Source: Paraglaciecola marina (lineage in GTDB: Bacteria; Pseudomonadota; Gammaproteobacteria; Enterobacterales; Alteromonadaceae). Taken from it: DNA of 64,000 nucleotides. The notes beneath the pieces were generated by a model, which worked only from the letters and a program-made list of their open reading frames with translations, was not told where the DNA came from and made no database searches. Positions 29,030 to 45,700 of the stretch are shown piece after piece. Made by a program: the position numbers and the translations under genes. Positions within the stretch are counted from its first letter, which is position 1, and each line of letters starts with the position of its first letter. The stretch is from the NCBI RefSeq assembly GCF_004360155.1, contig NZ_SAIS01000009.1, forward strand, positions 124,001-188,000. Direction: 5' to 3'.

Positions 29030-30679
29030 TTATTCTTCTATATCCCTAAGTACTTTATCAATACGCACTTTGTATTCATTGAATAGGGCTTGCTGTTGCT
29101 CAGATAATTTCACATCAACTAAAAATTTAATACTCTCTTCAGCGTGTAGGCTTTCAGCTTCAGTTAACCCCGATTCTTCAGCAATAATTGCTAACACTTT
29201 GAGTATAGTAATCACTATGTTTTTATTGTTTGGAGACAATTTATTGGCTTGGCATAGAAAGTTATAAGATGGCTTGTAGCGCTTGTTCTTATAATGGGAT
29301 GATGCCATTTCGCCCAACTCTTTTGGGTTGTAACGAATATTTTCCCGTTCCTGTGACTCTTGTTCTAGGTAAGCAGTGAGTACCTTGCCTGTAAAGGAAT
29401 CATCGGAAACGCCACCTTTCATTTCATTAAGTATCGACATTGATTTTTCCCACATTCCCGCTTCGTGGTAAGCCTTTACTTTATCTAATTCATCTTCAAA
29501 ACTACTTTGTATATCTAAGGCTGAGTTCTCTTCTATAAGGGCCTCTGCCACTTTTTTATTATTTCTTAAGCTCATTAACCTAATGTTTATTATGGTTAGT
29601 TGCTCTTTTAGTTCATTCGCCACAGTGAAATCAGATTTAAGCCGCTCGATACTTCTTTCGGTATTTGCGAGAAGTTTATTAGACTCAGCTTCGGGTAACG
29701 TTGCAGCAAGATCTATAGCCGAACGAATAACGTTCAGTTGCAGAACAGGAGAGTCATGAATAGAGTTTTTTGCATACTTAGACATGTTTTTAGTTGCTAT
29801 ATATTGACCTAAACGGTCGTGATTTAGCCGTGCTAAATTCCACGATTTTCTATTTCGTTCAATACTACGAGGGGCTAATTTTGTGGCCTCTTGAATAATT
29901 TCGTAACCCAATTGAAAGTTTTCTTTAGCAATATGGTATTCAGCTAACAAGTCATAAGTCGCAAACTTTGTATCTTCTCGCTGTAGTAACTCATTGGTTA
30001 AGGTAGTTGCTTCATCCATTTTATCTTGTTGCAGTAGCGTAGCGGCAAGACCAACCTGTACCCAGGCGTAAGAGTATGTTTCAGCTATTTTTTCATAAAA
30101 AGCTTGTGCTTCTTTGTATTCTCGTAAATTAAATAAACAGCGACCAATTAAGCGATTTATATGGGGGTGATATAGTACTAAAGAATCATCTTTTAATTGT
30201 CGCTCAGCGTAATAAATAGCAGTAGGGTACTCTTCTTTATCGAAACAAAATCGCAAAGCGTAAAGCTTTTGTTCAATCAGCAAAATCTGCTGAATACGAT
30301 GTTCAACTTTTGATTTATCCAATGGCTTAACCCAAAAATCTGTAGGCTCCATTTCAACAACACAATTAACTAAGCCTTTATTGGTATCAGCACTGAGAAA
30401 TACAACACAGGTGGTTTTGGTAATATAACCTTTGAACTTCATCTCTTCTAAAAGGTTAAAACCATCTTTATCACTTTTCACATCAAATGCGATAAGCACC
30501 ATATCAAACTTGGTGGACTCACATAATTGCAATGCTGTATACGAATTATGAGCACTTTGAATATTTTTAATACCTGCATCTAGTAACGCGGCTTTTATCA
30601 CCGTATGTACCAGTGCTTGTCCATCAATAACTAGAATTTCTAATTTATTCGAAGGTTTTTGTTCAGGTATTTTTATCAA
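29030..30679 (-). CDS. Receiver-domain protein with TPR repeats, copy 2
   Basis: 549 residues, paralogous to the gene downstream over its whole length, with the receiver domain almost identical (for example SDKDGFNLLEEMKFKG in both) and the last third more diverged. It has the same one-Asp LVIDGQ start of the receiver, the same MVLIAFDVKSDKDG variant and the same WVKPLD lysine block. TPR-like helices fill residues 130-549. The start is UUG at 30679 with AAAGGA upstream, within the same ATG AAA GCT TGA leader as copy 1. Tandem duplication within the lineage is inferred. The family role is unknown to me. Confidence 0.85.
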   Translation of the reverse strand: MIKIPEQKPSNKLEILVIDGQALVHTVIKAALLDAGIKNIQSAHNSYTALQLCESTKFDMVLIAFDVKSDKDGFNLLEEMKFKGYITKTTCVVFLSADTNKGLVNCVVEMEPTDFWVKPLDKSKVEHRIQQILLIEQKLYALRFCFDKEEYPTAIYYAERQLKDDSLVLYHPHINRLIGRCLFNLREYKEAQAFYEKIAETYSYAWVQVGLAATLLQQDKMDEATTLTNELLQREDTKFATYDLLAEYHIAKENFQLGYEIIQEATKLAPRSIERNRKSWNLARLNHDRLGQYIATKNMSKYAKNSIHDSPVLQLNVIRSAIDLAATLPEAESNKLLANTERSIERLKSDFTVANELKEQLTIINIRLMSLRNNKKVAEALIEENSALDIQSSFEDELDKVKAYHEAGMWEKSMSILNEMKGGVSDDSFTGKVLTAYLEQESQERENIRYNPKELGEMASSHYKNKRYKPSYNFLCQANKLSPNNKNIVITILKVLAIIAEESGLTEAESLHAEESIKFLVDVKLSEQQQALFNEYKVRIDKVLRDIEE

Positions 30680-30765
30680 GCTTTCATTCCTTTATAAATC
30701 AAATGTTTACCTACAAGTAGTTAATTTATTATGCTAGAACATGAATGTCTAGTTATCATACTTTA
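30680..30765 (-). repeat. Duplicated leader of receiver-TPR copy 2
   Basis: Counterpart of 28704-28790. AAAGGA, the ATG AAA GCT TGA mini-ORF and the TAATAAATTAA block are all retained, with scattered substitutions elsewhere. Confidence 0.75.
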
Positions 30766-30904
30766 AACTAAGTGGGGGCAAAATTTCTGAGGATAAGGTA
30801 TAGAAATACATATATAGATTTTACATCTTATCTTTTAGTTTTATGTACAAAAATAAAAGCATATTAACTGTATTTAACCATGCTTACATGGCCGTGGATC
30901 CCTA

Positions 30905-31147
30905 TTACCTTCTTTTTACGTTAGCTATTCTAAGGTTGAGGTGCCACCCTATCAAATGGTCTTTCTCAGTACAGAACCCACGTGAGCAGCTTACTGCTGA
31001 TTCCTGTAAATGAAGCTGCTCCGTCGTAATTGCAATGTCTTGAATAGGGATTGGGCAAAACCCGAATGATAGATAATAGGTTTTGCCATTTGCATGAATT
31101 GAATGGTTATTCTCTTTGTTTATTACACCGTTATTGTGTGGTGACAA
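30905..31147 (-). CDS. Possible small hypothetical protein
   Basis: An 80-residue frame opening at UUG 31147. The translation is not of low complexity and contains NGKTYYLSFGFCPIPIQDIAIT, but no family is recognised. No good ribosome-binding site precedes the UUG (a GGGAGC block is about 20 bases upstream, too far). It fills most of the 515-base gap between the TPR genes. It may be a relic or a chance frame; otherwise the gap holds nothing I can name. Confidence 0.3.
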   Translation of the reverse strand: MSPHNNGVINKENNHSIHANGKTYYLSFGFCPIPIQDIAITTEQLHLQESAVSCSRGFCTEKDHLIGWHLNLRIANVKRR

Positions 31148-31194
31148 TAAGTGTCTATTCGCTCCCGTTAAATTATATGATTCAATTTTTAAAA

Positions 31195-31701
31195 TTAATG
31201 GGACACCTGCCTAGTTAGTTTATTTTTGTCATTTAGCAATATTGAGTTGGCTACTAATTGCCTATTACGCAACAGTTTTGCGTTATCAGGATCCAACGCA
31301 ATAGCCTTATCATAATGATGCATTGCTCCTACAAAATCATGCTCTTGGTTAAGTAGTTGAGCCAAGGCCACATGAGCTGGGTAAAAGTTGATGTTTAGTT
31401 TTAGGCTGTGTGTAAAGTCACTTTTTGCTTTGTTATATTGACCTTGTGCCATGTATATAATTCCTCGGTTTAATCGAGTAATTGACTCCGCCTCTTTGGT
31501 TACCCAATCATTATCAATGACCTTAGTACAGGCAAGAGTCGTTAGGTTACGTACATCAGTCTTTTGATGTAACAACACGGTTTGCTGAAAGCATTTTTCT
31601 AAGTTACCGTTCATTTGGCTAACCGAAAGGTAACTCGCACCAGCAGGTAATACTGGTAAGCTCAAGATGGTGGCAATCGATAAACTCATAAATTTTGTCA
31701 T
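31195..31701 (-). CDS. Small exported TPR-repeat protein
   Basis: 168 residues from the ATG at 31701, chosen over an upstream in-frame start at 31764 because TTGGAG lies 8 bases before it and because it gives a clean signal peptide (about residues 1-22, cut near PAGA-SY). At least two TPR units follow, RGIIYMAQGQYNKAKSDFTHSLKLN and FYPAHVALAQLLNQEHDFVGAMHHYDKAIALDPDN by position near residues 75-140. Likely a periplasmic protein-protein interaction module. It is divergent from the AraC-type regulator. Confidence 0.75.
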   Translation of the reverse strand: MTKFMSLSIATILSLPVLPAGASYLSVSQMNGNLEKCFQQTVLLHQKTDVRNLTTLACTKVIDNDWVTKEAESITRLNRGIIYMAQGQYNKAKSDFTHSLKLNINFYPAHVALAQLLNQEHDFVGAMHHYDKAIALDPDNAKLLRNRQLVANSILLNDKNKLTRQVSH

Positions 31702-31797
31702 GGTACGCTCCAATATTTGGGTAGGTGATTTAAAACTCCTATTCACTCTAAAATTTTCACCCAAAAGTTAAGCCCGATACTCGGCAAACCCCTTAAA

Positions 31798-31807
31798 CGA
31801 ACGTTCG
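31798..31807. promoter_or_regulatory. Palindrome in the divergent promoter region, possible operator
   Basis: CGAACGTTCG is a perfect 10-base palindrome in the 220-base gap between the exported TPR gene and the divergent AraC-type regulator gene. Its position suggests a transcription-factor site; this is inference only. Confidence 0.3.
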
Positions 31808-31921
31808 CGTACACGCACTACATCTAGCCGAACCTCGCTTAGCTGGTATCCTTGTATATAAAATGACTTAATATGACATTGAATAAAGCCTTCAACTATT
31901 ATCTCTAGGGGGAACAAAAGC

Positions 31922-33046
31922 GTGTTTTCTTACATACTTAATTTCTACGATTTCATCGTATTAACCACTGCTCTTTTGGCTGTTCTGTATTCAATCCCTT
32001 TAATGATAAAAAGAGATATAGAAAAAAGTGATGTATTACTCTGTGCATTTTTAATCTGTCAGGGGTTGATCGCTCTCAATATTGTTTTTCTGCATAACGA
32101 AACATTGGGCCCACAAACCATCCAGAAATTAGCGCCTTTTCATTCAGTCCTCTTAACAATCCTTTATGGCCTTCAGGGATTTCTATTTTTGTGGTACTGC
32201 CGAGCAATGATGGGGATACCCATTCAAATGTTGACCAAAGCCAGTGTTGCTGGTTTAGCCACAGTGTTAATCGTGATTGTTTATGGCATAGGTGTTTTAT
32301 TTGGGGCAGAAAACTTAACAAAACCTTACCTACCCAATGCATGGATAGCTACCTTAATATCGGTTATAACAGGGATTTACGCGCTGCACTGCTTAAGCCA
32401 TTACGACAGTAATATTCGCCGTCGTTTTTCCACCATCGAAAATATTAAATTGTCTTGGCTCTGGTATTGCGGGCTAGGATTTGTATGCCTATGTGCCTTG
32501 TCATTATTGAGTTCTCTAAGCGGTGTTCTAGGGTTTTATTATTTAGCAGAACAAGTTGGCACCTTTAAAAATTTACTGCCTATGTTCTTGATGAGTATTA
32601 TGGTGGTATATAGCCAAACTCTGCGCACCGACAGAGATAGAAAAGCGTCTAATAGCCACACCTACATAGAAAGAGAAGAAAGGCCTTTCACTGTCAGTGA
32701 AGAGCAAAAGTCCAAATTAGAAGATCTCATGCTGCGGGTTAAAATATATCAAGATCCAGAGCTTAGGTTAGACGGTTTGGCTGACAGTATGAAAATGTCA
32801 CCAAGAAGTATTTCAGCCTTGCTAAACGGTTACTACCAAAAGAATTTTTACGACTTTATAAACTACTACCGGGTACTCGACGCACAAGAACAACTACGTA
32901 ATACACATACCTCAGATAAAACCATACAAAGAATATTCGAAGATGCTGGCTTTAACAGTAAAACCACCTTTAACACCCTATTTAAAAAACTCACAGGCCA
33001 CACCCCTAGCGAATACCGAAAGTTAACATCAGTATCAGAAAAGTGA
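31922..33046 (+). CDS. AraC-family regulator with an N-terminal membrane domain
   Basis: 374 residues. Residues 1-235 contain about seven hydrophobic helices (first at 9-27), followed by a cytoplasmic linker (RTDRDRKASN) and a C-terminal AraC-type double helix-turn-helix at about 265-370, ending with FNSKTTFNTLFKKLTGHTPSEYR, the family signature. Such proteins are membrane-bound one-component regulators; the signal is unknown. The start is GTG at 31922 after GGGGGAAC. Divergent from the exported TPR gene, which may be its target or simply a neighbour. Confidence 0.85.
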   Translation: MFSYILNFYDFIVLTTALLAVLYSIPLMIKRDIEKSDVLLCAFLICQGLIALNIVFLHNETLGPQTIQKLAPFHSVLLTILYGLQGFLFLWYCRAMMGIPIQMLTKASVAGLATVLIVIVYGIGVLFGAENLTKPYLPNAWIATLISVITGIYALHCLSHYDSNIRRRFSTIENIKLSWLWYCGLGFVCLCALSLLSSLSGVLGFYYLAEQVGTFKNLLPMFLMSIMVVYSQTLRTDRDRKASNSHTYIEREERPFTVSEEQKSKLEDLMLRVKIYQDPELRLDGLADSMKMSPRSISALLNGYYQKNFYDFINYYRVLDAQEQLRNTHTSDKTIQRIFEDAGFNSKTTFNTLFKKLTGHTPSEYRKLTSVSEK

Positions 33047-33584
33047 GTGAAACCTTGTGGTGAAGGTATCGTTTAGTGTGAATGTTTTATTGTTATAGTG
33101 GCTGTTGAATTCGGGTTGTAGTTTATTGATTTAATTATAGTTTATTACAATGGGGCTCGATAAGTATGCGCTAAAAAATGTCACAAACTTCATTTACTAC
33201 TTAGATAAGATAATACACAGCTCTAGTTTGTTATGAAGGCAGAACAAGGAAAGGCAGAAAATGGGTTTCATTGTCATTTATCAAACACTAAGGCACGGCA
33301 GAATATTCACTTGGTTTACTGCATTTTTGATATTAGAAGCTTGCGATTATTTTCTATATTTTACTATTTTTATATACAGTTTGGTCTCTGGTTCAGCATA
33401 TTCGCAAGGTCAAGGTATCCCCCGTATTTCGTTATAGCACCATTTCATGTGCGGTTAAAAAATTAAGCTATACAGTTACTTAGAAAACATGCTAAAAATG
33501 GAGAAAATTAATATGCGGTGTGTCCCCGTGTTTAGTTACGGGGTAAGCAGGCTGATGAAACTGTTAGCTTTACAGGAGTCTATT
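33047..33584. other. Non-coding gap before the DUF3223 gene
   Basis: 538 bases. A 77-residue frame at 33233-33466 has no ribosome-binding site and an unconvincing sequence. Near the end, CCCCGT (33524-33529) and ACGGGG (33538-33543) form a 6-bp stem in the leader of the next gene. Nothing else is recognised. Confidence 0.4.
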
Positions 33585-34229
33585 TTGGCTAAACCGATAT
33601 CATTTGGAATTTTTAAATTTAATACACGTAAAGCTTGCGAAGATGAAGCTCGCAATCGTGTTAATTCATATTCAGCGGGTTCTATAATATCGACTACTGA
33701 TAAAGAGTTTTTTGAAGCCCTATTTACGCTACATGGTGAGTATGATGAAAAAATAGGGTGTGGTATTAAAGATATTGAAGTGGTCTTAGACTTTCATAAA
33801 AACAAGTGTCTATCCATAATTAGAAATGATAACTCTAAAGTAATTATTAGCTGGAGACATTGTGTTAAACCTTATACAAAGAAAATGGTTGTGTCATATT
33901 CTTTCAGAAGAGCGGTTAAAACTACTGTAATGGAGTTTAAAAGCATGGCTCTTTCAGGTGGTGCTACTTGTCCAGTATCAAATAATGAATTGTCTTTTGA
34001 TAATAGTCATGTTTCATATACATATGTTTCATTTGATGATTTGCTCAGTAACTTCCTTGCGACAAAAAATTTAGGTTATGAGGACATAGAGTTAATTGAT
34101 CCCGATGCAGCTGATTCTGATCAACGAGGAGTTCTTCAAAATACTTTACTCACTAATAGTTGGCATGAGTACCACAAAAACCATGCGAAATTAACATTAT
34201 TAAGTGCAGATGCAAATCTGAGAAAGTAA
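33585..34229 (+). CDS. DUF3223/DCL-domain protein with a degenerate HNH-like motif
   Basis: 214 residues. The block KIGCGIKDIEVVLDFHKNKCLSI with the following VIISWRHCV resembles the DCL domain (DUF3223). The C-terminal LTNSWHEYHKNHAKLTLLSADANLRK matches the tail I recall in bacterial members. Between them, TCPVSNNELSFDNSHVSY corresponds to a TCP...HVDH-type, HNH-like segment; here HVSY replaces the usual HVDH. A longer frame opens at 33489 or 33513, but the UUG at 33585 has AGGAG six bases upstream and gives the common MAKPI N-terminus. Function unknown; nuclease activity is doubtful. Confidence 0.65.
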   Translation: MAKPISFGIFKFNTRKACEDEARNRVNSYSAGSIISTTDKEFFEALFTLHGEYDEKIGCGIKDIEVVLDFHKNKCLSIIRNDNSKVIISWRHCVKPYTKKMVVSYSFRRAVKTTVMEFKSMALSGGATCPVSNNELSFDNSHVSYTYVSFDDLLSNFLATKNLGYEDIELIDPDAADSDQRGVLQNTLLTNSWHEYHKNHAKLTLLSADANLRK

Positions 34230-34241
34230 AGCTAACACATA

Positions 34242-35821
34242 TGAGCCTCCGGTCGGTCAATAGGTATTAGTCATCTTTTGATCACTTTTTCAAGATCAAT
34301 CCAAATCACTGAGCTAAGCCGTACACTTCATCTGTCATATTGGCTGTTAAGTCATCGCTTACAGCAAACACATATAGAGGCTCTCTTATGTGATCTCATC
34401 ACAGCCTGTTATTTCACCATCCGTGATAACAACAGGGGCACTAGACATTCATCGGTTAACCCAGCATTGGCACTATTCAAGAATAGGGTTGGATAAATCC
34501 ACCAGTTAGTTGCAGGCTCAGGCTAGGTGTAAACGATTTAGCTCAGAGTATTGATGCACGCCCATTCGGTGTCTAATCAAGCAATGTAGTTGCCTGGCGG
34601 TGGCATATAAAGGATATCAAGGGCTTGTTTAGCCAGTGATAAATTCACTACCGTTTATAAATGCTCTGCCTGAGGCCCTAGTTAGACGTTCAGCTCACCG
34701 AATGACGTGACTAACCTGCTAGAAATCGACTTTCATCAAATGCCTTTTGTCGTTTTAACATGAAGTAGACACATCGGCCAAGTTTGTGGGCGAGCGCTGA
34801 AAGCGCTTTTGCTTTACTCATGCGTTTTTGTAGTTTGTTGAGGTAAGCTTTCGCTTTATCGTTACCTCTAAAATAGAGCACGGCCATTTCAGAGAAGGCC
34901 CATTTTAGGTGAGCGTTACCAATTTTGTTTCCTTGGGTACCATATGTTTTACCTGCTGATTCAGCTTTGCATTTTACGAGTCGAGAATACGATGCAAACT
35001 TCTGCACAGATTCAAAACGTTGAATATCGCCGATTTCATACAAGATAGTGAGGGCGAGTATTTGCCCGACACCAGCGATGGATTTGAGCAAATAATAATC
35101 TCTGGCATTATGCTGCTTGGCTTGTTTTTCAATGAACCATTCGACTTTGCGTAGTTCAGTTTCGATATGGCCTACCATGGTTAAGTCGATATCAACATTA
35201 CGTTGTACAGAGGGTTCAGAAAACACCCCACGCATTTGTTCACGAGCGGGTTGATAACGTAAATTAAGAGTATGGGGACGATAATTATATTGGCTAACGG
35301 TGTTGGTGACATGTGCTTTTAAATCCGCCCCAAAGCGCACTAACTTGGTACGTCTGCGGAGTAAATCACGAGTCGCGCGTAATTCATTAGGGTAGTTATA
35401 TGCCAAGGGGAAATTGCCTCCGCGTAATAATTTGGCAATTTTAAATGAATCAATTTTGTCATTCTTGGTTTTACCGCCATGTATGGCCTTCATATACAAG
35501 GCATGGCCGAGCACAAAATCAATATTGTGTAATTGGCAAAAGTCGCTAATCCAGTACCAGCAGTGCATACATTCGACGCCAACAACAATATTACCCAAAT
35601 AAGGTTGTAGCAAAGAAAGTAGTTGTTCTGGTGAATCTTTTATTTTTTTATGTACGAGTACCTCACCGTGTTCGTCAATAATGCAGACATAAAGTAGGCG
35701 AGCGTGTAAATCAATTCCACAATAGTATGGATGTGTATTAGTATAAAAGTTCATTGAGCTTCTCCGTTCGGTTTTGTCACCAATCAGAGTAGCCGAAAGT
35801 TACGCTGATTGGGGAGGCTCA
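34242..35821 (-). mobile_element. IS110-family insertion sequence (boundaries tentative)
   Basis: TGAGCCTCC at 34242-34250 and its inverted copy GGAGGCTCA at 35813-35821 bracket the transposase gene, giving a 1580-bp element, a normal IS110/IS1111 size. The left repeat begins 12 bases after the DUF3223 stop. Nine bases of match could arise by chance in a search of this kind, so the ends are tentative. About 460 bases between the left repeat and the transposase stop are non-coding, as expected if the guide (bridge) RNA of IS1111-type elements is encoded downstream of the transposase. Confidence 0.5.
34711..35754 (-). CDS. IS110-family transposase (DEDD recombinase)
   Basis: 347 residues. The RuvC-like N-terminal domain carries Asp15 (GIDLHA), Glu61 (VECMHCW), and Asp99/Asp102 (KNDKID). 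The C-terminal Tnp_20 domain contains KSIAGVGQILALTILYEIGD and the conserved Ser at about 266 (AESAGKT). All catalytic residues are present, so the gene looks intact. IS110 enzymes recombine circular element and target using an element-encoded bridge RNA. Its ATG (35754) lies inside an inverted-repeat arm (see 35755-35824). Confidence 0.93.
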   Translation of the reverse strand: MNFYTNTHPYYCGIDLHARLLYVCIIDEHGEVLVHKKIKDSPEQLLSLLQPYLGNIVVGVECMHCWYWISDFCQLHNIDFVLGHALYMKAIHGGKTKNDKIDSFKIAKLLRGGNFPLAYNYPNELRATRDLLRRRTKLVRFGADLKAHVTNTVSQYNYRPHTLNLRYQPAREQMRGVFSEPSVQRNVDIDLTMVGHIETELRKVEWFIEKQAKQHNARDYYLLKSIAGVGQILALTILYEIGDIQRFESVQKFASYSRLVKCKAESAGKTYGTQGNKIGNAHLKWAFSEMAVLYFRGNDKAKAYLNKLQKRMSKAKALSALAHKLGRCVYFMLKRQKAFDESRFLAG

Positions 35822-35824
35822 ATG
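35755..35824. repeat. Nested inverted repeats upstream of the IS110 transposase
   Basis: Inner arms CCAATCAG (35780-35787) and CTGATTGG (35805-35812) form a perfect 8-bp stem, extended by GTA/TAC after one mismatch. The outer arms at about 35755-35768 and 35811-35824 match at 12 of 14 positions. The outer left arm abuts the transposase start codon. It may be a promoter-blocking hairpin, part of the end structure, or part of a bridge RNA. Confidence 0.6.
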
Positions 35825-35923
35825 AGTATCAAGCACATGAATAAAGCGGCTGTGTGGTCAGACACACCTATAGTAAGTCGATCGTGCGCGGCTCATACCA
35901 ATTGGAATTAGGAATCACTGCGA

Positions 35924-36844
35924 ATGGCAGATAAATCGGAAAGGGAAAAAAGGCGGTTAGGCTGGCATGAAGAAGTCAGAGAGGTACCCAAAGCAGGGTC
36001 CCTCATTGTTTTTATTCATGGTTTAGGTGGAAACTATAAAAAGACTTGGGGTGAGTTCCCTGATTTTTTGGAGCAAGACGATAAATTCAATAATACTGAT
36101 ATCTATTTATTTGGATTTAAATCTGGTTTTTTGCGTTTCTTTGTTTCTCCAATAGAAGCGCTTGGGCAAAGGCTTCGTACGGTCTTATTAGATGCTTCAT
36201 GCAAATATGAACAAATAACGGTCATATCACATAGTCTAGGTGGACTCGTCGTAAAAGAAGCTATCGCTAGTATTTTGAAAACAGGGGACGCTCATCGTGT
36301 CAATTTACATCATGCAATATTTTGCTCAACACCTCACCTAGGATCGGTAACGGCACGTTTCTTAGCATTTTTAGGTGGACACATTAATCAACTTAAAGTT
36401 CTTCAGCCTAAAATAATAGACGCCCATACACTTTGGCTAGCAAGGATAAATTCACACAAGACAAGTCCAAATGACATTGTCCATGAGCGCTATTCCAAAA
36501 ATATTGATATTACGAATATATGGGCCTCAAATGATCGAATCGTTTCATTTGGCAACGCTACTGCGCTACCGAGTCAGCATACGATAACTATTGAAGGCTC
36601 ACACACAATGATGGTTAAACCAGAAACAATGGACCATCACGTATATACGACATTGTCTGAGCAGCTGGTGAAAGCTCCTGTTCCAAAACCAATAGAGTCA
36701 TCACCATCTATTCAAATATTGGCTGATTCTGCAAAATTGGGAGATGAACTAAAAATTCTTAATACTCTGGAGATCCCAGTAAAGTATCGAGCATTGGTGA
36801 AGAGAGTAGAACTGAAAAACAGTGAGAGCGAAGGAGAACAATGA
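35924..36844 (+). CDS. PGAP1/DUF676-like serine alpha/beta hydrolase
   Basis: 306 residues, no signal peptide or membrane helix. A complete lipase-type triad is visible: oxyanion motif IHGLGG at 31-36, nucleophile Ser104 in SHSLGG, Asp204 in ASNDRIV and His227 in GSHTMMV. The surroundings (STPHLGS after the nucleophile strand) resemble PGAP1-like/DUF676 esterases. The last 60 residues are a non-catalytic tail. AGGAA precedes the ATG. Its stop overlaps the next start by four bases (ATGA), so the two proteins are made together. Substrate unknown; esters or membrane lipids are plausible. Confidence 0.85.
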
Positions 36845-38187
36845 ATACGTTCCAAACTACCAACACACAACCTGTATTTCGCCTTATAGCCATTACCGGA
36901 ATAAGAGACTCTCAGGAATTACTTCCTCAGGAAATAACAGAACGTCGCGATATAAATATTACATATTTCCGATACGGTTTTACTTCAATACTCACCAAAA
37001 ATAAGATGTACGATAAGTTTAAGAAGTCATTTGATGAGATATTAGATGGAAATTATGATATTGGCATAATTGCATGGAGCCTAGGAGGATATATGTTGAA
37101 AAGGTATCTCGTAGAGTATAATGAGCCTGACCTGCTTCAAAGGATTAAGCTGGTTGTTTTTGTTGGCACACCTTCTGGCTCGCCTAATCCTTTCTCTAGA
37201 TTTATAAATTTTGGACTTGGTGGGCTTCTTAAACTAAAAGACTTGTACTCTAAAGCTCAAGTTTATGAGAACGCATGGAATGAAATTGTTAATAGTCACA
37301 ATCTTAATGTATATACATTATTTGGAGCTTATGACTCGATTGTTCCTTTAACTTCAAGTTACAACTCCGATCCCAACAGAGTATATGTCGTTGATGAAGA
37401 TCACTTTTCTTTACAAGTACCAAAGCCTGATTCGATGACAAGTAAAGTGCTATGCAAATTAATAGGCGACCTCAGCCGCGAAGAAAATAACTTAAAGTTT
37501 GATGAAGAATTAAGTATAGAAAAAATAGTAAATGAGGAACTGGCAGAGGAGCCATTGACGATTGCAAGATTCGCGGCTGATGAAAATACTGATGACAATA
37601 TAAAATTCATATCTGAGTTATCAAACAACATCAAAGAAACTTCAAAATTAGTCTCATCTTTAAATAATGACTCTAATAGTATCGGAAATATTTTAAATGT
37701 AATAAATGGAATTAGTGAACAAACCAATTTACTTGCATTAAATGCAGCTATCGAAGCGGCGAGAGCAGGTGAACAAGGGAGAGGCTTTGCTACTGTTGCT
37801 GATGAAGTAAGAAATTTAGCACAAAGAACTCAAGAGTCGACAAGTGAGATTGATAAGATGCTTAGATTAATGAATGAAAGAGCGTTAGAAACTGCTTCAA
37901 TATTAAAAATAACGTCCAGCAGTATAGAGAATACAGAAAGTCGAGTAACAAATGCTTTCGAATCAATCACAGAAATATCTAGTGCTATTGAGGCGATCTC
38001 AGAAATGAGCGCACGAATCGCTAGTGCAACTTCAGAGCAAACCCCTATTTCAGAAGAAATCAGTAATGCTGTACTTAATATTAACAAAGTGACAGAAAAC
38101 ACAAAAAGGCTTGTGGAAATTGCCAACAGGAGCCTAGCTGGTAAGCCGGTCAGTTTCTTAAGAACACATAACAAGCAGGTTAAATGA
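36841..38187 (+). CDS. Alpha/beta hydrolase fused to a methyl-accepting chemoreceptor signalling domain
   Basis: 448 residues. Residues 10-215 are an alpha/beta-hydrolase domain with Ser80 (AWSLGG), Asp165 (GAYDSIVP) and His188 (EDHFS), and a TPSGS segment after the nucleophile; the usual HG oxyanion motif is absent. Residues about 250-430 are an MCP cytoplasmic hairpin; its tip, around 293-327, carries [19 protein letters not shown] followed by [16 protein letters not shown], the region that contacts CheA/CheW. There is no membrane helix, HAMP domain or C-terminal CheR-tethering pentapeptide. The C-terminal arm is about twice as long as the N-terminal one. Translationally coupled to the hydrolase upstream. 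I know of no named family with this architecture; role unknown. Confidence 0.88.
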
Positions 38188-38308
38188 AGCGTTGAACGTC
38201 CGCAGTTTGTCTTCTGCCGACTATCCGCATTGTGCCAAAAGCAGACATTACGGCTACTCTGTTCATGTGGTCAAATTCACTATGCCACTACAGTTTTGTT
38301 GTCTATTG

Positions 38309-39208
38309 CTAAATTGCATTGAAATTTAAATCAAACCTACTCGGCATCATTTCTGCCTGCCATAACTCCGGTTCGAAAGGCCCATTTTTAATCATTTCGA
38401 TTAATTGTTCTCGGTGTTCTTGAGGCATATTACAACCAAAATAAACATTTGTAATCTCATCTCCATTGAGAACAAGACTCGTGTCGTTATTTGCTAACTG
38501 TAAGGGTGCTCCAGGCTTGTATATAGAGCGATACTCGTCTTCGTATTTCCAATCCTTGGATTTAGTTAAAATAGGTTCGATAATTTTCATGTCCAAATCA
38601 AGATGAAGCTTATCTTCCTTATTGTGATTAGCGATTTCCTCTGACTTAAAGTAAAGCTTTCGAATGTCACCAAACATAGGGAAGGTTAGAGAAGGAAACT
38701 TGTCGGTATAGCGAACTTTATATACTTGTGAAAGCAACTGCCCCTTTGTGCTGTACTCTACACAATATCCTTTGTGTGAATCGGCATAGTGAGACCAAAA
38801 TAGCAAGTTATCTTTACGTTTCGTAAAGCAGCAGAGCCGAAAGCTTTGAAACTCTTCAAGCAGCTTTTGCTCGACATCAGAAATTATCGAACAATTAAGT
38901 TCAAAAGAGTAAGCTCTGCGAATAGCATCTTGCATATCTATACGTTCATTGAGCATTAGAGACACTAGATCTTCTCTTAACGCATTCATTTCTTTATCAG
39001 TTTTTGGCCACTCTAAAATAGGTCTACATTCAAAGGGATCATTGAAATAAGATGGTTCATTGTGAAATAAGTTCTTGTCGCAAAATAATGCTTCGTGGTA
39101 ATGAACAGTTTCTGGGTCAAAGGCTGAAAATCTGTACAAGCTCTGCGTACCGTCATCATAAGGGCGCTTGTATTTTTTCAGAAACAATTTGGACATCACT
39201 TCGATCAT
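38309..39208 (-). CDS. DUF2971 protein
   Basis: 299 residues. The pattern LYRFSAF, SYFNDPFEC, RLCCFTKRKDNLLFWSHYADSHKGYCVEY and DWKYEDEYRSIY matches DUF2971, a widespread cytosolic family of unknown biochemical role that often occurs in variable chromosomal islands. GGAGGAATT precedes the ATG. It converges with the hydrolase-MCP gene, 121 bases away. Nothing in the sequence assigns a function; membership of a defence or toxin module would be speculation. Confidence 0.8.
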   Translation of the reverse strand: MIEVMSKLFLKKYKRPYDDGTQSLYRFSAFDPETVHYHEALFCDKNLFHNEPSYFNDPFECRPILEWPKTDKEMNALREDLVSLMLNERIDMQDAIRRAYSFELNCSIISDVEQKLLEEFQSFRLCCFTKRKDNLLFWSHYADSHKGYCVEYSTKGQLLSQVYKVRYTDKFPSLTFPMFGDIRKLYFKSEEIANHNKEDKLHLDLDMKIIEPILTKSKDWKYEDEYRSIYKPGAPLQLANNDTSLVLNGDEITNVYFGCNMPQEHREQLIEMIKNGPFEPELWQAEMMPSRFDLNFNAI

Positions 39209-39642
39209 AATTCCTCCCTGATGTTGCTGTGTATCGCATTGTAACAGAGGGCCTACAACGAAGAAAAGTAATGCCCTTATTAGATATAAAGAATGTTGCT
39301 CGTAAAAATTAGGGGCAAAAATTGTAACGATACGAAGGACTATATATCGCTCAAAGCCGTCCGTCGCCTCAGTGCCATTTACTGCCGTTCACCCACATTC
39401 ATCTGAACTGGTGCTTATAGCAGTATGCAGAAGTTAAGTTAACCCGAAGGTATCTGCATTTTGCAGCAAATTGCCTTCACTCACACCTTCGAGCCGGAAC
39501 CTCAGCTGATACGATATTGCTGACGTAAGACGTTCCTTAATTTAACGCATTCTGTTCGATTAAAGCAGGCTTTGAACGAACGATTCCGCCCCTCGATAAA
39601 TGGCAAGAAAAAAGACGCTAGCAGAGGGCGACTAGCTAATGC
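39209..39642. other. Non-coding gap carrying one copy of a 31-bp direct repeat
   Basis: 434 bases without a credible ORF. It contains the first copy (39347-39377) of the 31-base direct repeat, whose second copy is at 40620-40650. Confidence 0.5.
39347..39377. repeat. 31-bp direct repeat, copy 1
   Basis: Starts TCGCTCAAAGCCGTCCGTCG and ends CCTCAGTGCCA. Identical over 31 bases to 40620-40650; the two copies bracket the secreted hypothetical gene at a spacing of 1273 bases. Confidence 0.9.
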
Positions 39643-40341
39643 TCAATCAACTTCGAGATAAAACTCGCTTGAATATTCAACGGTTGCGTTAAGTTTTGCT
39701 TTGAAGCTTTTGTAAAAGGAATCAAAGGCCTTCTGACTACTCCATCGGCTAATTAAGGTCACATCTGGTGAACGTTGATAACCAAACATGGAAGTAACTG
39801 AGTCGGCGCTTAATTCAGCACTGCCGCCAGCCTTTTCAATAGCGAGTTTAAGTTCAGTGGCAAAATTGGTATCGCCTGTCCAGTATGCACCAAACACATA
39901 GATTTGCTCTGGGTCGAAACGAATATTAATATCTTGTTTTACTTCGAAGTTAACCATATTGAACGTAGACCAAATATCTAATCTTCGAGAGCGTATGTCC
40001 GGAGCCAAAACCAAAAGCTCAGCGAACCGTTTTTGCCGGTCCTGCCAGTCTCCCGGCCAACTTCCAACGGCTAAAACTCTTGGGGAATACATACCGCTAA
40101 TGGGTTTTCGCACGACATTAAAAAACGTATTCGCTGTGTAGCCAAGTTGGCTTCCCAATGGACCAATATCTTCAAAATAGGCTTTTTGATAAGTTCTGCC
40201 TTCTTCTTTTAAGGTTAGAAGCAAAATATCAATTACATGATCTTTACCTATTACTAAATCTCTTGTTTTCGCTGCGCTCTGTAATGAAAAGACCAGCGTA
40301 AATACGAGACCTATCATGACCGTACTATTTTTAATTCGCAT
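39643..40341 (-). CDS. Secreted hypothetical protein
   Basis: 232 residues. I do not recognise the family. A signal peptide covers about residues 1-24 (LVFSLQSAAK). The mature part has two similar halves ending in SRWSSQKAFDSFYKSFKAKL and earlier GSWPGDWQDRQKRFAELL, which suggests a pair of ferredoxin-like (dimeric alpha-beta barrel, EthD/DUF1330-like) folds; this is a guess from pattern. The frame opens at 40356, but that codon lies on the Shine-Dalgarno sequence GAGGAAA; the ATG at 40341 has proper spacing. Bracketed by the 31-bp direct repeats. Confidence 0.65.
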   Translation of the reverse strand: MRIKNSTVMIGLVFTLVFSLQSAAKTRDLVIGKDHVIDILLLTLKEEGRTYQKAYFEDIGPLGSQLGYTANTFFNVVRKPISGMYSPRVLAVGSWPGDWQDRQKRFAELLVLAPDIRSRRLDIWSTFNMVNFEVKQDINIRFDPEQIYVFGAYWTGDTNFATELKLAIEKAGGSAELSADSVTSMFGYQRSPDVTLISRWSSQKAFDSFYKSFKAKLNATVEYSSEFYLEVD

Positions 40342-40512
40342 ACACATTTTCCTCAACTAAGGTGAGAAGCAGTGTCCACTAAATGTGTCATTGCGTCTTG
40401 CATATTCAGACAAACAACAGATTAACAGGATAAACGCTGTTTTGGATTAAAAGTATATGTATCTATTGAATTTTTTAGCAGCATGGATGGAGAGGATTTC
40501 CAAGATATTACA

Positions 40513-40540
40513 CGTCATTCCCGCGAAGGCGGGAATGACG
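40513..40540. repeat. Palindromic REP/dRS3-like element
   Basis: CGTCATTCCCGC, loop GAAG, GCGGGAATGACG: a perfect 12-bp stem. The core ATTCCCGC...GCGGGAAT is the same as in the dispersed dRS3/NEMIS-type and other extragenic palindromes of many proteobacteria. No T-run follows, so it is not an ordinary terminator. Confidence 0.85.
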
Positions 40541-40619
40541 GAGAATAGAAGGGACGATGTCACCGTCTGCTTCCTCAGTATAGGTGATCGTCACCGCTAC
40601 TTAATCGTATGTCCGCTTT

Positions 40620-40650
40620 TCGCTCAAAGCCGTCCGTCGCCTCAGTGCCA
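40620..40650. repeat. 31-bp direct repeat, copy 2
   Basis: Identical to 39347-39377. Here it is nested inside the GTCCGCTTT/AAAGCGGAC inverted pair. Confidence 0.9.
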
Positions 40651-40849
40651 ATTGCAGTCATTCCTCACTTTTGAGTGGTTGCTTCTGCTTCACGCCCAAA
40701 GCGGACCAAACGAATTGTTAAATCGAAAGGATTACACAGTCAAGAGCAGAAATTTGAATGGCAGATTTCACTGCTGTTGTAAAAACAAATAAACAGCAAA
40801 TGGCACTTCTTTACCAAAACCGTATCTGAGTTAAACAATAGACACTTAG

Positions 40850-41065
40850 TTACTGAATTCGATTGATACAACATTTCTTAAATTTCTTTCCACTTCCGCA
40901 AATACATAGCTCATTGCGACCAATTTTTTTTGTTATCTTTGCTTTAGGGATATTAGCCAAAACTTGCTCGCTTGTTTCATCATATACCCAATCGAACTCT
41001 ATGTAGTCGGCTGTATTGAATAGTTTAGTGTGCTTTTTATCATCATAATGTTTTACACCAATCAC
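40850..41065 (-). CDS. Small SEC-C zinc-motif protein
   Basis: 71 residues from GTG 41065. The C-terminus IGRNELCICGSGKKFKKCC is the SEC-C zinc-binding motif of SecA and many small proteins. The preceding 45 residues are not recognised. The frame continues open for about nine codons upstream of the GTG without an alternative standard start, and the ribosome-binding site is weak, so the gene may be a 3' fragment of a longer SEC-C protein. Confidence 0.5.
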   Translation of the reverse strand: MIGVKHYDDKKHTKLFNTADYIEFDWVYDETSEQVLANIPKAKITKKIGRNELCICGSGKKFKKCCINRIQ

Positions 41066-41323
41066 AATACATTTTCTTGCTTTAAATCGTCAGGGTCAGA
41101 GCGGTTGATATCGAGTTAATGTTTAACGACTAGTCATCACCGTAACATCGGCTTCGCCGATGTCCATCTTAGGTGGCTTCCCACTGCTCTTCCACCTTTA
41201 AAGTATCAGCAAAATGGCTTATTCATAACGTGTATGTGATGTGGTAACTAAGTCGCGCAGCAGGAGTTATTCGATTGATTTGGAAGAAGCTGCTTAATTC
41301 AGGGTGTCTAGGTAGCCTTTACT
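41066..41323. other. Non-coding gap with hairpin and short repeat
   Basis: 258 bases. ACATCGGC, TTC, GCCGATGT at 41145-41163 is a perfect 8-bp stem. TCAGGGTCAGAG at 41090-41101 recurs at 42507-42518, a motif I associate with ends of degraded mobile elements. No ORF. Confidence 0.4.
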
Positions 41324-42133
41324 TTACCTGAAGTGGTCAACTAAAAGTTGTGCATATCCATCTCGTGTTTTTTGATCAATAAAATGATTGTCATTGACAG
41401 ACAGGTGGTAAGTTGAGTGTGTAAAGTTATGCTGCTTAAGATAGGTCATTATCTTATTGGCCATGAGGGATGAAGGCCAAATATGGTCATTTTTTGCTGA
41501 AATTAATAAAAGAGAACCATTGATTTTTTCGAATTGAAATTGGGCATAAGAAGCTGAATTTTGAGTTAATGCTGCTGTAGACCGCTCATAAATACTCTCT
41601 TCAGATTGGCGAGGAAAAGTAACCGAGGGTAAAGGCTTCCCTTTAATAGTCCACGCATGGGGGCTAATTTGACCATGCCAAGCAACCGATGAAGGAACTA
41701 TACCAGCCACAGCGGTGATTCTGGGATCGTTTGTTGCACTAAGAAATGCTAACTCTGAGCCGCGTGATACGCCTAGAATACCCAAATTATTGGTATTAAC
41801 TTGTGGGTGATTTTGTAAATAATCTAAGGCATCGCTCACTGTTTCTATCGGTATTTCATCTAATGTATTTGGTAAGCCCTGAGATCGAAAATAAGCTAAA
41901 CTCATGGCAACAATCCCATGGGCAGCCAACAGTTCAGGGTAAACTGTATTACGATGTCCACTCGAACCTCCCAGCACTATCACCGCAGACATTTTTCCTG
42001 ATTGTTTTGGTATATACAATGTGGCGCTAATTTGTTCTGTTTGTAAATCAGTAGTTACAAAACTAACCTTAGCGTTTGCAATAAAAGTGTTGCAGGCTAA
42101 CAATAAAAAACATGTTATTTGTTTATAGGGCAT
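41324..42133 (-). CDS. Exported BAAT/dienelactone-hydrolase-like esterase
   Basis: 269 residues. A signal peptide covers about 1-21 (TFIANA-KV). The mature part is an alpha/beta hydrolase resembling the C-terminal domain of acyl-CoA thioester hydrolase/BAAT: VIVLGGSSG at 51-59, nucleophile Ser123 in GVSRGSELAF, Asp216 in SAKNDHIWPSS and His250 in NDNHF. Periplasmic location makes an acyl-CoA substrate unlikely; an ester or peptide-like substrate is more plausible. Unlinked to neighbours. Confidence 0.8.
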   Translation of the reverse strand: MPYKQITCFLLLACNTFIANAKVSFVTTDLQTEQISATLYIPKQSGKMSAVIVLGGSSGHRNTVYPELLAAHGIVAMSLAYFRSQGLPNTLDEIPIETVSDALDYLQNHPQVNTNNLGILGVSRGSELAFLSATNDPRITAVAGIVPSSVAWHGQISPHAWTIKGKPLPSVTFPRQSEESIYERSTAALTQNSASYAQFQFEKINGSLLLISAKNDHIWPSSLMANKIMTYLKQHNFTHSTYHLSVNDNHFIDQKTRDGYAQLLVDHFR

Positions 42134-42784
42134 AGCGAAGTCTATTTAATAAGGTCCATTGATAGTAGATAGGATACATTCGCTAATTCCTCAGCGCTAA
42201 TTATCAAATAACAGAGTTAATAGTTTATGGAACCGGCGGAGCAGAACCGTTGATTTACTTTTTACGCTTTGAAATGTTCATATTTTCATTGGTACCTTTT
42301 AAGTGCTTTGTTGTAACACCCTCATGTAAGGCTGTATGGTATGTGAATAAGGCTGATTAATCATAACCAATCTTATTCATTTTCCAAAATAATCCGCAGA
42401 TGGTTTATTCGCTGACACCACAAATTTCGATGATACATAGGATGTAAATCCGTATGCAATTCAAGAACTGTTGTTTGCATACACGTTCATCTGGCATGGC
42501 AAATTATCAGGGTCAGAGTTAAATTAAACTTGTAAGATATTGATTTATAGTGGCTTACTATTTGTTGCAGTGACATTATCCCGTTTAAAGTTTTAACTAT
42601 TGTTTACACATACCGATACTTTATTGAACCTCACTCCTGAAGGTCAGGCCTTGTCGCTTTTAACCATTGGGGAATGACATGGGATTAAAAGGTTACTTGG
42701 CTTTTATATTGCCTAAAGTTCACGAGATTTTTATACAAAAAAGCCCTCAATTTTGAGGGCTTTGATTTTTGGGCTTAGTTACGG
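42134..42784. other. Long non-coding gap at the end of the accessory region
   Basis: 651 bases with no ORF. It contains the second TCAGGGTCAGAG copy (42507-42518), a GAATAAG/CTTATTC inverted pair around 42345-42380, and at its right end the terminator of the ABC operon (42740-42763). Confidence 0.45.
42740..42763 (-). terminator. Intrinsic terminator of the ABC/M1 operon
   Basis: AAAGCCCTCAA and TTGAGGGCTTT form an 11-bp stem with a two-base loop. On the minus strand a run of T follows the stem, 22 bases after the ABC-M1 stop codon. Confidence 0.85.
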
Positions 42785-45700
42785 TTACAACTTAATGATG
42801 TTGTTACCTGTGTCGCGGTCAATAAAGCGTACGAATGGGTCTATGCCCGCGTAGTTGGGGACTTCATCAACCGTTAATTCAATGGTGGTGTCTCCACTTT
42901 CAATGGTATGTAGGCCTTTGTAAATCACCTTATTGTCGGCTGCAAAGTTGTTGGGGTCGTCACTAAATAGCACTATCTCTACTTCTTGTGAGAAGGGCTG
43001 TTCGGTTTCTTTACCTTTGCCGTCTGCTGCAAACTGTTGGGCCGATACGGTGAACAATACTGTGGTTTGTCCGTTTTCATCGGTTGCCTGTGATATTTCT
43101 TTGGCTTGTAGGTCGTAGATGGTGATCTGCGAAAACAAGTCTTGAATATAAGCTTGCTCTTCTACCGTAGCTACTGCGTTTAAATGCCTGACTAAATCAA
43201 GTGTGGTGGGGTACAAGTCTTCTCTAAATTTATATTCATTTAGCAAGGCTTGTAGTGCCTGATTAAGTCGAGTTTCACCTAGCTTGTTGACTAGCGCCAT
43301 CATCACAACCGAGCCTTTTTGATAATGAATATATTGCTGGTTTTCAGAGCGCAGCAATGGCATTTCTTCAATACGTTCTGCGCTGCGGCCTTGTAGGTAC
43401 CGGTCTAGCTCGTGGGTTAAGAATTTACGGAGTTTTGTTTCACCGTATTTTTGTTTCATCACCATTAACGCGCTGTACTGAGATAGGCTTTCAGACAAAA
43501 TTGCGCTGCCTTGTACATTGGCAGCATTAAGCTGGTGGCCCCACCATTGGTGAGCGACTTCGTGAGCAGTCACGTAGTAAACAGGGTCAATGTTTTCAGG
43601 ATCTCGCAGGTCGGTTATAAAGCCTATGTTTTCTGAGTAAGGCACAGTATTCGCAAAGCTTTGTGCAAAACTGCGGTAACCCGGAAACTCAATGATCCTT
43701 AATTGCTTGTGCTGGTAGGGGCCAAATGCTTGTTGAAAATAATCGAGTGAGTCTTGGCTAGACTCTATCATTCGGTCTATGTTCCAGTGATGATCTTTAT
43801 GGTAGTAAACTTCAATGCTTATGCCTTTATATTCAACCTTTTTACTTTCAAGTTTGGCAGACATAATACTGAAGAAGTTAACCATAGGGGCATCCATTTC
43901 GTACCTGTAATAGTTGCGTCCGTTTTCTTGCCATTCTTTTTGTAAATACCCAGGCACAATAGCAAATTGATCGGCGCTGGTGGATACAGTGGCGCTAAAG
44001 TCAATAAACTCGACTCCCTTACCAAAAAAGCTTTCGGTATAACGTGAGGTGTCTTCTAGTTTATAGGCTCGCTGCAATGGCGGTAAATCCCGTTTGCGTC
44101 TTTCATGCTGATCAGTAATGCGGTAATCCTCATTAAAACCAAAAGACGGGAACAAGGTAAAGTTATTAATAAAGGTGCCGTTTTTGACTAAGGTGCTGTC
44201 TTCACCTCTGTCTTTAAAGCCATTGTGGTACCTAGATACCGTTATAGTGCCTTGCCTTTCTTCGTTAGGGGCAAGTGGCTCGCTGAGTTCATACCAACCC
44301 ACATTATATTTACTGTCGATTTCACCTAAGGTGCCACCGGGTATGTCAACGGTATAGGCTTTAGTGTGCTGTGGAATATTCACTAAAAATCGCGTGATAG
44401 GTGTGTTAGTGCGGTTAATGACTTTTACTTTGGCGTTGGCATCTATGCGCCTACTTTCAGGGAATATATCAATAGCGGCATCAACACTCACTATGGTTGG
44501 TATAGGGGCATCACGAAATTCAACGAAGTCTTTTTCGTAATCTGCTTGGGTATTTAAGGTGTCGTCTTGGCTATAAAAGGTATTCAATACTTTGGTGTTG
44601 TAATGAATGTAAGCACCGCTACTAATAAATACCACTAAAGCTACTGCAGCAATACTCTTACCTTGAGTGCCTAGTTGATAATTTAATAAGCTAAAACGTT
44701 GTTTTAACGAGGTTTGCGGGCCTCGCTTCCATAAGCCATAACTCAGCACACTTAGCACTACCGCTAAGGCTGACCAGTACAACATGTACCAATTTTGGGT
44801 TTGCATAAACCAGCCATAGCCGTTTAATCCTGAGTATTGCAGGGTAGGGGCGGCTGCAAAATTGAACATATTATGTTCTATGCCTATTTGCGGAAACACA
44901 ATAGACACAAATATGTAGCCAACAAAAATTAGCATACCCACGTACTTATTAGGGCTGAGTACTTGAATCAAAAAGGCTAATACTATGGTTAAGCAAAATG
45001 GCAGCACGCCAAAATATAAAAGGCTTATTAGGTATTGACCAAACTCGATGTTTTCGTAGCCACTTAACAGTTGTTTGATGATGGCAAGGGCCATGCCTAC
45101 AAAATGTAAAGACACAATCACTAACATCACAGCTATGAGTTTAGATAGCCAAAAGGTGACATTGTGCACGGGCATGCTGTCTACAATATCGCCCATGCCT
45201 ACGTTGCGTTCACGCCATACTACTTCTGCTGTGTAGTAAGTAATTACAATTATGGTCATAAGCGAAAATGCGCCTATGATGATTTGCACTAAGGTTTGAG
45301 TTAAGGGCCAATTTGGAGAGCCATAAACACCGTTTATATTGAAAAAACTCGCCACTAATTGAAATGCAGAGAATAGTAACAACACCGCAAATGCAGGGCT
45401 GAACATCACTTGTTTTATCTCAAATTTAGTACGAGTGATAAACTGTGAAAACCCATTGTCTGCTGTAGACTTAATGGCAATATTAATGGTTTTAGGAATG
45501 ACACTGGCGTTTTCTTTGCGTGCTTTTTTGCTGGCTTTATTTGGCGTTAAGTTTAAGGGTTTAAACAAGCCGCCTCCAGCTAGTAATATAAAACCGCCCA
45601 CGGCCACCCATAACAGCCTATTTTGTAATACCGCACCACCTAAAGAAACCATTAAGGCGTTCTTTTCAAAGGCAGTCCAATATCTTGCATATTCACGAAA

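Follow-up and report, generated by a model that had tools for sequence, protein, structure and literature searches.

A predicted serine esterase gene of Paraglaciecola marina overlaps a gene for a divergent hydrolase fused to a chemoreceptor signalling hairpin

What does a hydrolase do in front of a chemoreceptor signalling hairpin, and does the protein that joins the two act on its own? These questions are raised by a gene in the 64,000-nucleotide stretch of the Paraglaciecola marina genome analysed here (the window). A sequence-only reading of this stretch had described a cytosolic alpha/beta-hydrolase domain in the position where a methyl-accepting chemotaxis protein (MCP) carries its sensor, and had proposed that either the hydrolase regulates a chemosensory array or the array gates the hydrolase. 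The fused architecture stood up to analysis, but the picture of a self-contained single protein is incomplete, as the gene is the second of a tandem esterase pair. The overlapping upstream paralogue, two histidines lost from the fused hydrolase, the short N-terminal arm of the hairpin and the defence-type relatives had all been overlooked. The fusion and the residues discussed below are located as follows.

36841..38187, plus strand: hydrolase-MCP fusion gene, 448 aa, soluble product (open reading frame call and Pfam)
36841..37575, plus strand: divergent alpha/beta-hydrolase domain and linker, residues 1-245 (profile match over 34-205)
36895..36897, plus strand: Thr19 (multiple alignment)
37075..37077, plus strand: Trp79 (alignment)
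37078..37080, plus strand: Ser80, predicted nucleophile (profile and alignment)
37333..37335, plus strand: Asp165, predicted catalytic acid (profile and alignment)
37402..37404, plus strand: His188, predicted catalytic base (profile and alignment)
37576..38130, plus strand: MCP signalling hairpin, residues 246-430 (Pfam, NCBIfam and MCP comparison; arm ends set by eye)
37717..37824, plus strand: hairpin tip, residues 293-328 (alignment with the MCPs of the genome)
37792..37794, plus strand: Thr318 (alignment with the MCPs of the genome)

A soluble fusion in one open frame

The fusion gene opens with ATG and runs through 448 codons with no internal stop; a single frame followed across the opposite strand of this stretch contains many stops. 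An artefactual frameshift or gene join was considered and rejected at the level of the sequence, given the single open frame, the lack of a stop and the ATGA-coupled start; an error of assembly is still conceivable. The highest 19-residue Kyte-Doolittle mean in the product is 0.81, with no stretch reaching the level of a membrane helix, and the corresponding maxima for the 11 membrane-helix MCPs of the same genome are 2.37-3.31. The Pfam scan reported no HAMP or PAS domain in the fusion. The earlier claim of a soluble hydrolase at the sensor position of a chemoreceptor, lacking membrane helix, HAMP and PAS, is supported by the open frame, in which no frameshift is seen, the Pfam and profile matches and these hydropathy values. 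The upstream gene has a G+C content of 39%, each half of the fusion 36% and the window 40%.

The overlapping upstream gene

35924..36844, plus strand: upstream DUF676-type serine esterase (predicted), 306 aa (Pfam, PDB and alignment)
36830..36844, plus strand: Shine-Dalgarno-like GAAGGAG (36830-36836) with ATGA start/stop overlap (36841-36844) (sequence)

The GAAGGAG sequence lies inside the 3' end of the upstream gene, before the start codon of the fusion, and translation of the fusion is likely to be coupled to that of the upstream gene. A promoter scan returned 5 sites where 7.8 were expected, none of them upstream of the pair. The upstream protein matches Pfam DUF676 (PF05057) with an E-value of 7e-14 and 52.3 bits (cut-off 20.3), and alignment places an HG motif at residues 32-33 (H32-G33) and a triad at Ser104/Asp204/His227. 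We predict from these matches that it is a canonical DUF676-type serine esterase. The PlaB phospholipase (PDB 6zth), its only solved relative at E 0.1, matches over upstream residues 24-146 (E 1.5e-5). The two hydrolases of the pair are homologous, with 25% identity (38/151) and an E-value of 5e-6.

Divergence of the fused hydrolase

The hydrolase half of the fusion falls below every Pfam cut-off (Abhydrolase_1, E 0.072), and DUF676 is not listed for it at E-values up to 1; it was detected solely by a home-made esterase profile. This profile was built from 39 sequences, the upstream protein and its relatives, with the fusion left out, and matched fusion residues 1-245 at E 1.6e-12, the best of 1000 shuffled sequences reaching E 3.7. 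The genome's 14 other MCPs and five MCPs from elsewhere gave noise only against the profile (best E 0.17), as did a sixth MCP from elsewhere (0.9 bits). A PDB search with the fused hydrolase gave no credible match.

Among 42 aligned relatives, the catalytic columns hold Ser in 42, Asp in 36 and His in 37. Ser80, Asp165 and His188 of the fusion align to these columns in the correct order, so the triad named in the earlier reading was rightly placed in a hydrolase context. Two other positions depart from the family. Thr19 replaces the histidine of the HG motif in the oxyanion region, and Trp79 replaces the histidine preceding the nucleophile, each of which is found in 42/42 relatives; the profile match covers nothing before residue 34, so Thr19 is placed by the multiple alignment alone. 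By these alignments the fused hydrolase is the divergent, odd member of the pair. Since the two family histidines are absent, it may be inactive, altered or regulatory, although the retained triad means that loss of activity is not proven.

The MCP signalling hairpin

Pfam MCPsignal (PF00015) matches fusion residues 262-418 with an E-value of 6.9e-41 and 140 bits (cut-off 34.6). Matches to NCBIfam and PHROGs begin at residues 246-249, the NCBIfam models being those of whole receptors and scoring far under their cut-offs; the best of them for the signalling part, CtpM, gives an equal-length match of 175 residues each, likewise far under cut-off. The conserved MCP tip makes contacts with CheA and CheW and within receptor trimers. 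In a 40-column tip region, 29 columns do not vary across the genome's 14 other MCPs; the fusion keeps 28 of them, in agreement with the tip claimed earlier. The sole exception is Thr318, which is Val in 14/14 other MCPs.

The C-terminal arm is in register with those of the other MCPs of the genome. The hairpin length class, which we take to be 40H, looks alike because 144 residues follow the tip in the fusion and 147 do so in 6 of the 14 other MCPs. The two arms are unequal: judged by eye, about 60 residues of the N-terminal arm and about 122 of the C-terminal arm are recognisable as MCP. The six 147-residue receptors have about 130 residues before the tip (by eye) and the fusion is MCP-like only from about residue 246, leaving about half of its C-terminal arm without the usual partner. 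A scan for methylation motifs proved too insensitive, detecting no site in the fusion but also missing any in 9 of the genome's 14 other receptors.

The genome encodes 15 MCPs including the fusion, of which three others (L015, L016 and L021) likewise lack a membrane helix. Two of the receptors (L020 and L021) have an N-terminally placed signalling domain, within the first half of the protein; 320 and 204 residues follow the start of the tip, and thus further sequence lies beyond the hairpin. Six CheW-domain proteins are encoded, among them a 722-aa CheA-like frame, a CheW of 164 aa and three that are CheV-like in length. The CheA-like, CheW and CheV-like genes therefore co-occur with the fusion in the genome, all of them outside the window, in which no CheW-domain gene and no MCP other than the fusion was found.

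The closest MCP in the same genome is 44% identical to the MCP half of the fusion. Among the plasmid matches listed the best-ranked is 48% identical, and 47 of all 2014 records reach 60-80% identity over their best place. Recent capture of a local MCP is not supported by the nearest matches (44% in the genome, 48% for the best-ranked plasmid match). The MCP half alone matches one phage record and no viral contig. Four plasmid MCP matches examined with the esterase profile contained no hydrolase (L099 was unlisted at E 10).

Searches for a second fusion

No second hydrolase-MCP fusion was found in the genomes, plasmids, phages and viral contigs searched. The fused hydrolase half had no relatives in plasmids, phages or viral contigs, and none in one-per-species genome contigs, where exact 8-residue patterns were used, so that this last search covers close relatives only. 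A second scan used a DNA pattern with the catalytic-Asp motif about 394 bases before the MCP tip, at fixed spacing; it misses other spacings, other motif spellings and the other Glu codon. The pattern occurred once in the window and in 2 viral and 13 genome stretches, among whose open reading frames a motif scan found no hydrolase-MCP fusion. Two of the stretches contain ordinary MCPs (L069 and L072) that gave only noise against the hydrolase profile. Many distant fusions would escape these searches because exact 8-residue matches or a fixed spacing were required. With both genes as a DNA query, 181 plasmid records matched, none over more than 80% of the query, and the best 10 of the 181 matched around the MCP tip. 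No named family with this architecture came out of scans of the fusion with Pfam, PADLOC, NCBIfam and PHROGs, which fits the earlier statement that none is known. No hydrolase-MCP fusion was found described in open-licence PMC papers, which is weak evidence on this point.

Relatives of the two hydrolases

Relatives of the fused hydrolase were sought at E <= 0.001 in five overlapping samples of 98, 369, 398, 395 and 242 genomes. They were found in 5 other genomes of the 398 (phylum sample) and 3 of the 395 (family sample), with no others in the samples of 98, 369 and 242. These eight comprise five lipoprotein-like lipases, four of a distant family (f224) and one of another (f232), one protein at locus L083 and two of defence type; no MCP motif was present beside any of them within the DNA examined. 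For the four f224 proteins, the f232 protein and L083, no defence context was seen. Two of the three relatives from the same bacterial family are of defence type by PADLOC. One (L082/L085) is an LmuA lipase (E 1.1e-97) encoded in a Lamassu operon, where its gene is followed by LmuC and LmuB genes and preceded by a ThsB-like TIR gene. The other (L084/L087) is a 1304-aa protein with the lipase domain first and a large remainder that matches PD-Lambda-4_A (E 1.8e-43). In L087, Pfam found no ATPase domain and the lipase matches are under cut-offs, although inspection by eye shows a Walker-like stretch. The upstream gene has a relative in the same genus (L029) that resembles L087 by eye, and the ATPase nature of both was judged in the same way. 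As a separate observation, positions 729-5039 of L085 show a lipase-effector Lamassu adjoining a ThsB-like TIR gene.

The upstream esterase is more widely represented, with relatives in 47 other genomes of the 398 in the phylum sample, in 4 others of 60 near relatives and in 19 plasmid records; none were found in phages or viral contigs. Annotations among the plasmid records include three ABC-three component proteins, one NB-ARC and one AAA-like protein. The best plasmid match by E-value was left out of interpretation, as most of the annotated gene falls outside the matching region. A Klebsiella plasmid relative (L034) contains CTD8, a domain of ABC-3C systems, and the gene downstream of it is annotated SbcC. 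We examined 38 loci (L029-L066), representing 29 of the 47 phylum genomes, all four near relatives and 5 of the 19 plasmid records, and no MCP motif was present at any of them within the DNA examined. PADLOC run on the pair itself matched LmuA at E 0.0041 for the upstream gene and at noise level for the fusion, neither being solid.

The alpha/beta-hydrolase fold is given as one of the LmuA effector domains (PMC10586767) and as an effector in bacterial conflict systems (PMC8195603, PMC7159879); the terms MCP and methyl-accepting are absent from the main texts of the latter two papers.

A variable hotspot

27036-28703 and 29030-30679, minus strand: two similar, adjacent response-regulator/TPR genes
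30679-42785: variable insertion hotspot between conserved flanks
33489-34229, plus strand: HamC2-like gene (DUF3223; PADLOC E 4.7e-85)
34711-35754: IS110 transposase (Pfam)
38309-39208, minus strand: DUF2971 protein matching the PDC-S31 defence candidate (E 9.9e-46)

The pair lies between the IS110 transposase and the DUF2971/PDC-S31 gene, which is convergent with the fusion, and the HamC2-like gene is farther upstream. No helicase-sized open reading frame was found near the HamC2-like gene, which is an orphan, perhaps a remnant or else a member that stands alone.

The hotspot is flanked by a response-regulator/TPR gene and an ABC-2/M1-peptidase gene. The response-regulator/TPR gene at 29030-30679 has a relative in each of 17 same-genus genomes searched, split over two frames in one; 10 of these genomes had nothing close to the right flank, and three had the flanks on different contigs. 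In the other four the flank-to-flank interval is 2.1, 7.2, 6.9 and 20.6 kb, compared with 12.1 kb here. Ten island queries, with the fusion entered as two halves, found no match in these four intervals by tblastn at E 1e-3, while the flank proteins were found; the 20.6-kb interval was covered except for its final 1 kb. The locus is a variable hotspot and the esterase pair an accessory module within it.

Possible functions of the pair

We tentatively favor, with a probability of about 0.33, the interpretation that the overlapping genes form a conflict-type esterase module in which the fused divergent copy regulates and docks the canonical enzyme, possibly at a chemosensory array. The upstream protein would be the working serine esterase or lipase, and the fusion, a divergent esterase copy on a soluble chemoreceptor hairpin, would act as its regulatory partner, its hydrolase-like domain pairing with the active esterase or sharing ligands with it. 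Through the trimer and CheA/CheW contacts of its tip, the hairpin could keep the pair in an oligomer, probably at a chemosensory array. An invader, or some change affecting the array or the envelope, might then shift the hairpin and free the esterase onto membrane lipids or another ester. The analogy would be with conflict-type lipases that Lamassu parts or a large C-terminal regulatory region restrain. Because divergence marks the fused hydrolase and not its upstream partner, the earlier proposal of a hydrolase gated by the array may concern the upstream enzyme instead.

The ATGA overlap with its Shine-Dalgarno-like site is consistent with this module, as is the homology of a canonical upstream enzyme to a fused copy missing two histidines conserved in 42/42 relatives. 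Kinship also points this way, through LmuA at L082/L085, the PD-Lambda-4-like protein at L084/L087 with L029 alike by eye, and the plasmid relatives annotated as ABC-three component, NB-ARC and AAA-like (3, 1 and 1 of 19). So do the HamC2-like and PDC-S31 neighbours in a variable hotspot, and docking is compatible with a genome that has CheA-like, CheW and CheV-like genes, 14 other MCPs and a fusion tip matching them in 28 of 29 columns. Against it, neither gene has a solid PADLOC match, 6 of the 8 fused-hydrolase relatives lie where no defence context was seen, none of the 38 upstream-relative loci has an MCP motif, and L087 lacks a Pfam ATPase and has lipase matches under cut-offs. Thr318 in the tip is a further difficulty, and the short N-terminal arm may block a normal four-helix bundle.

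A possible but doubtful alternative is that the fusion works as a cytosolic chemoreceptor, its degenerate hydrolase sensing or slowly turning over a lipid or ester, perhaps a product of the upstream esterase, and its hairpin signalling to CheA for taxis toward or away from the compound. The nearly identical tip, the 144 residues after it (147 in 6 of 14 receptors), the equal-length CtpM match (far under cut-off) and the presence of CheA-like and CheW genes would all be expected of such a receptor, and the loss of two family histidines suits binding over catalysis. The unpartnered half of the C-terminal arm, opposite an N-terminal arm of about 60 residues, fits a signalling receptor poorly, as do Thr318, the lack of a CheW-domain gene or other MCP in the window and the defence-type gene surroundings. 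Unequal arms would matter less if the hairpin were a mere coiled-coil scaffold that dimerises or oligomerises the hydrolase with no relation to the array, and related lipases are indeed joined to other large or docking C-terminal parts; a bare scaffold has no need of a receptor tip, yet 28 of 29 columns are kept, and we regard this as quite improbable. It is also unlikely that the fusion arose by chance in a gene-shuffling hotspot, recent or neutral and with no selected joint function. The lack of a second example, the truncated N-terminal arm, the nearby IS110 element and the variable interval speak for such an origin, whereas 448 codons lack a stop and key residues are kept in both halves although neither the genome (nearest MCP 44%) nor the plasmid search (48% for the best-ranked match) yielded a close donor. 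A hairpin in use is favored by the conservation of the tip and by the failure to find a close MCP donor, and disfavored by the short N-terminal arm and the lack of a second example.

If the esterase module docks through its hairpin, chemoreceptor arrays would host an enzyme output beyond CheA phosphotransfer, and a defence-type lipase would come under the control of chemosensory parts. The stronger form of this proposal, an array-coupled immune module in which a chemoreceptor hairpin holds and triggers a defence-type lipase and a membrane hydrolase, lethal or protective, has the chemotaxis array as its scaffold or sensor, seems improbable. Even in the more modest case, a soluble receptor that derives from an esterase and is paired with an enzyme of its own would be an unusual sensor design, and the two-gene unit is small enough to be transferred to a laboratory strain.

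Comparison with known systems

With soluble MCPs the fusion shares the MCPsignal domain, the tip and the absence of a membrane helix. Those receptors are PAS-like by eye, whereas the fusion has a hydrolase in the sensor place, and it differs further in its half-length N-terminal arm, in Thr318 for Val and in the overlapping enzyme gene. MCP hairpins have antiparallel arms of equal length; those of the fusion measure about 60 and 122 residues by eye. Set beside DUF676 esterases, the upstream protein has the family score, HG motif and triad, whereas the fused copy has the triad order and lacks the HG motif, the histidine before the serine and a score above the Pfam cut-off. PlaB is a distant match to the upstream enzyme, compared by sequence alone.

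In the LmuA proteins of Lamassu and ABC-3C systems (L085 and the Klebsiella plasmid relative L034), a related DUF676-type domain is N-terminal and another module follows, as in the fusion. That module is the docking domain CTD8 in both, L085 having LmuC and LmuB partners as well; in the fusion it is an MCP hairpin, borne on a second, divergent hydrolase copy. Pfam found no CTD match here, and no LmuB ATPase gene was found, as no open reading frame between 31 and 42.7 kb exceeds 448 aa (LmuB of L085 has 662 aa). The PD-Lambda-4-like protein L087, with L029 similar by eye, also begins with a related lipase domain and continues into a large C-terminal part. In the Paraglaciecola marina fusion the C-terminal part is instead a chemoreceptor hairpin, and the canonical enzyme is encoded separately by the overlapping upstream gene.
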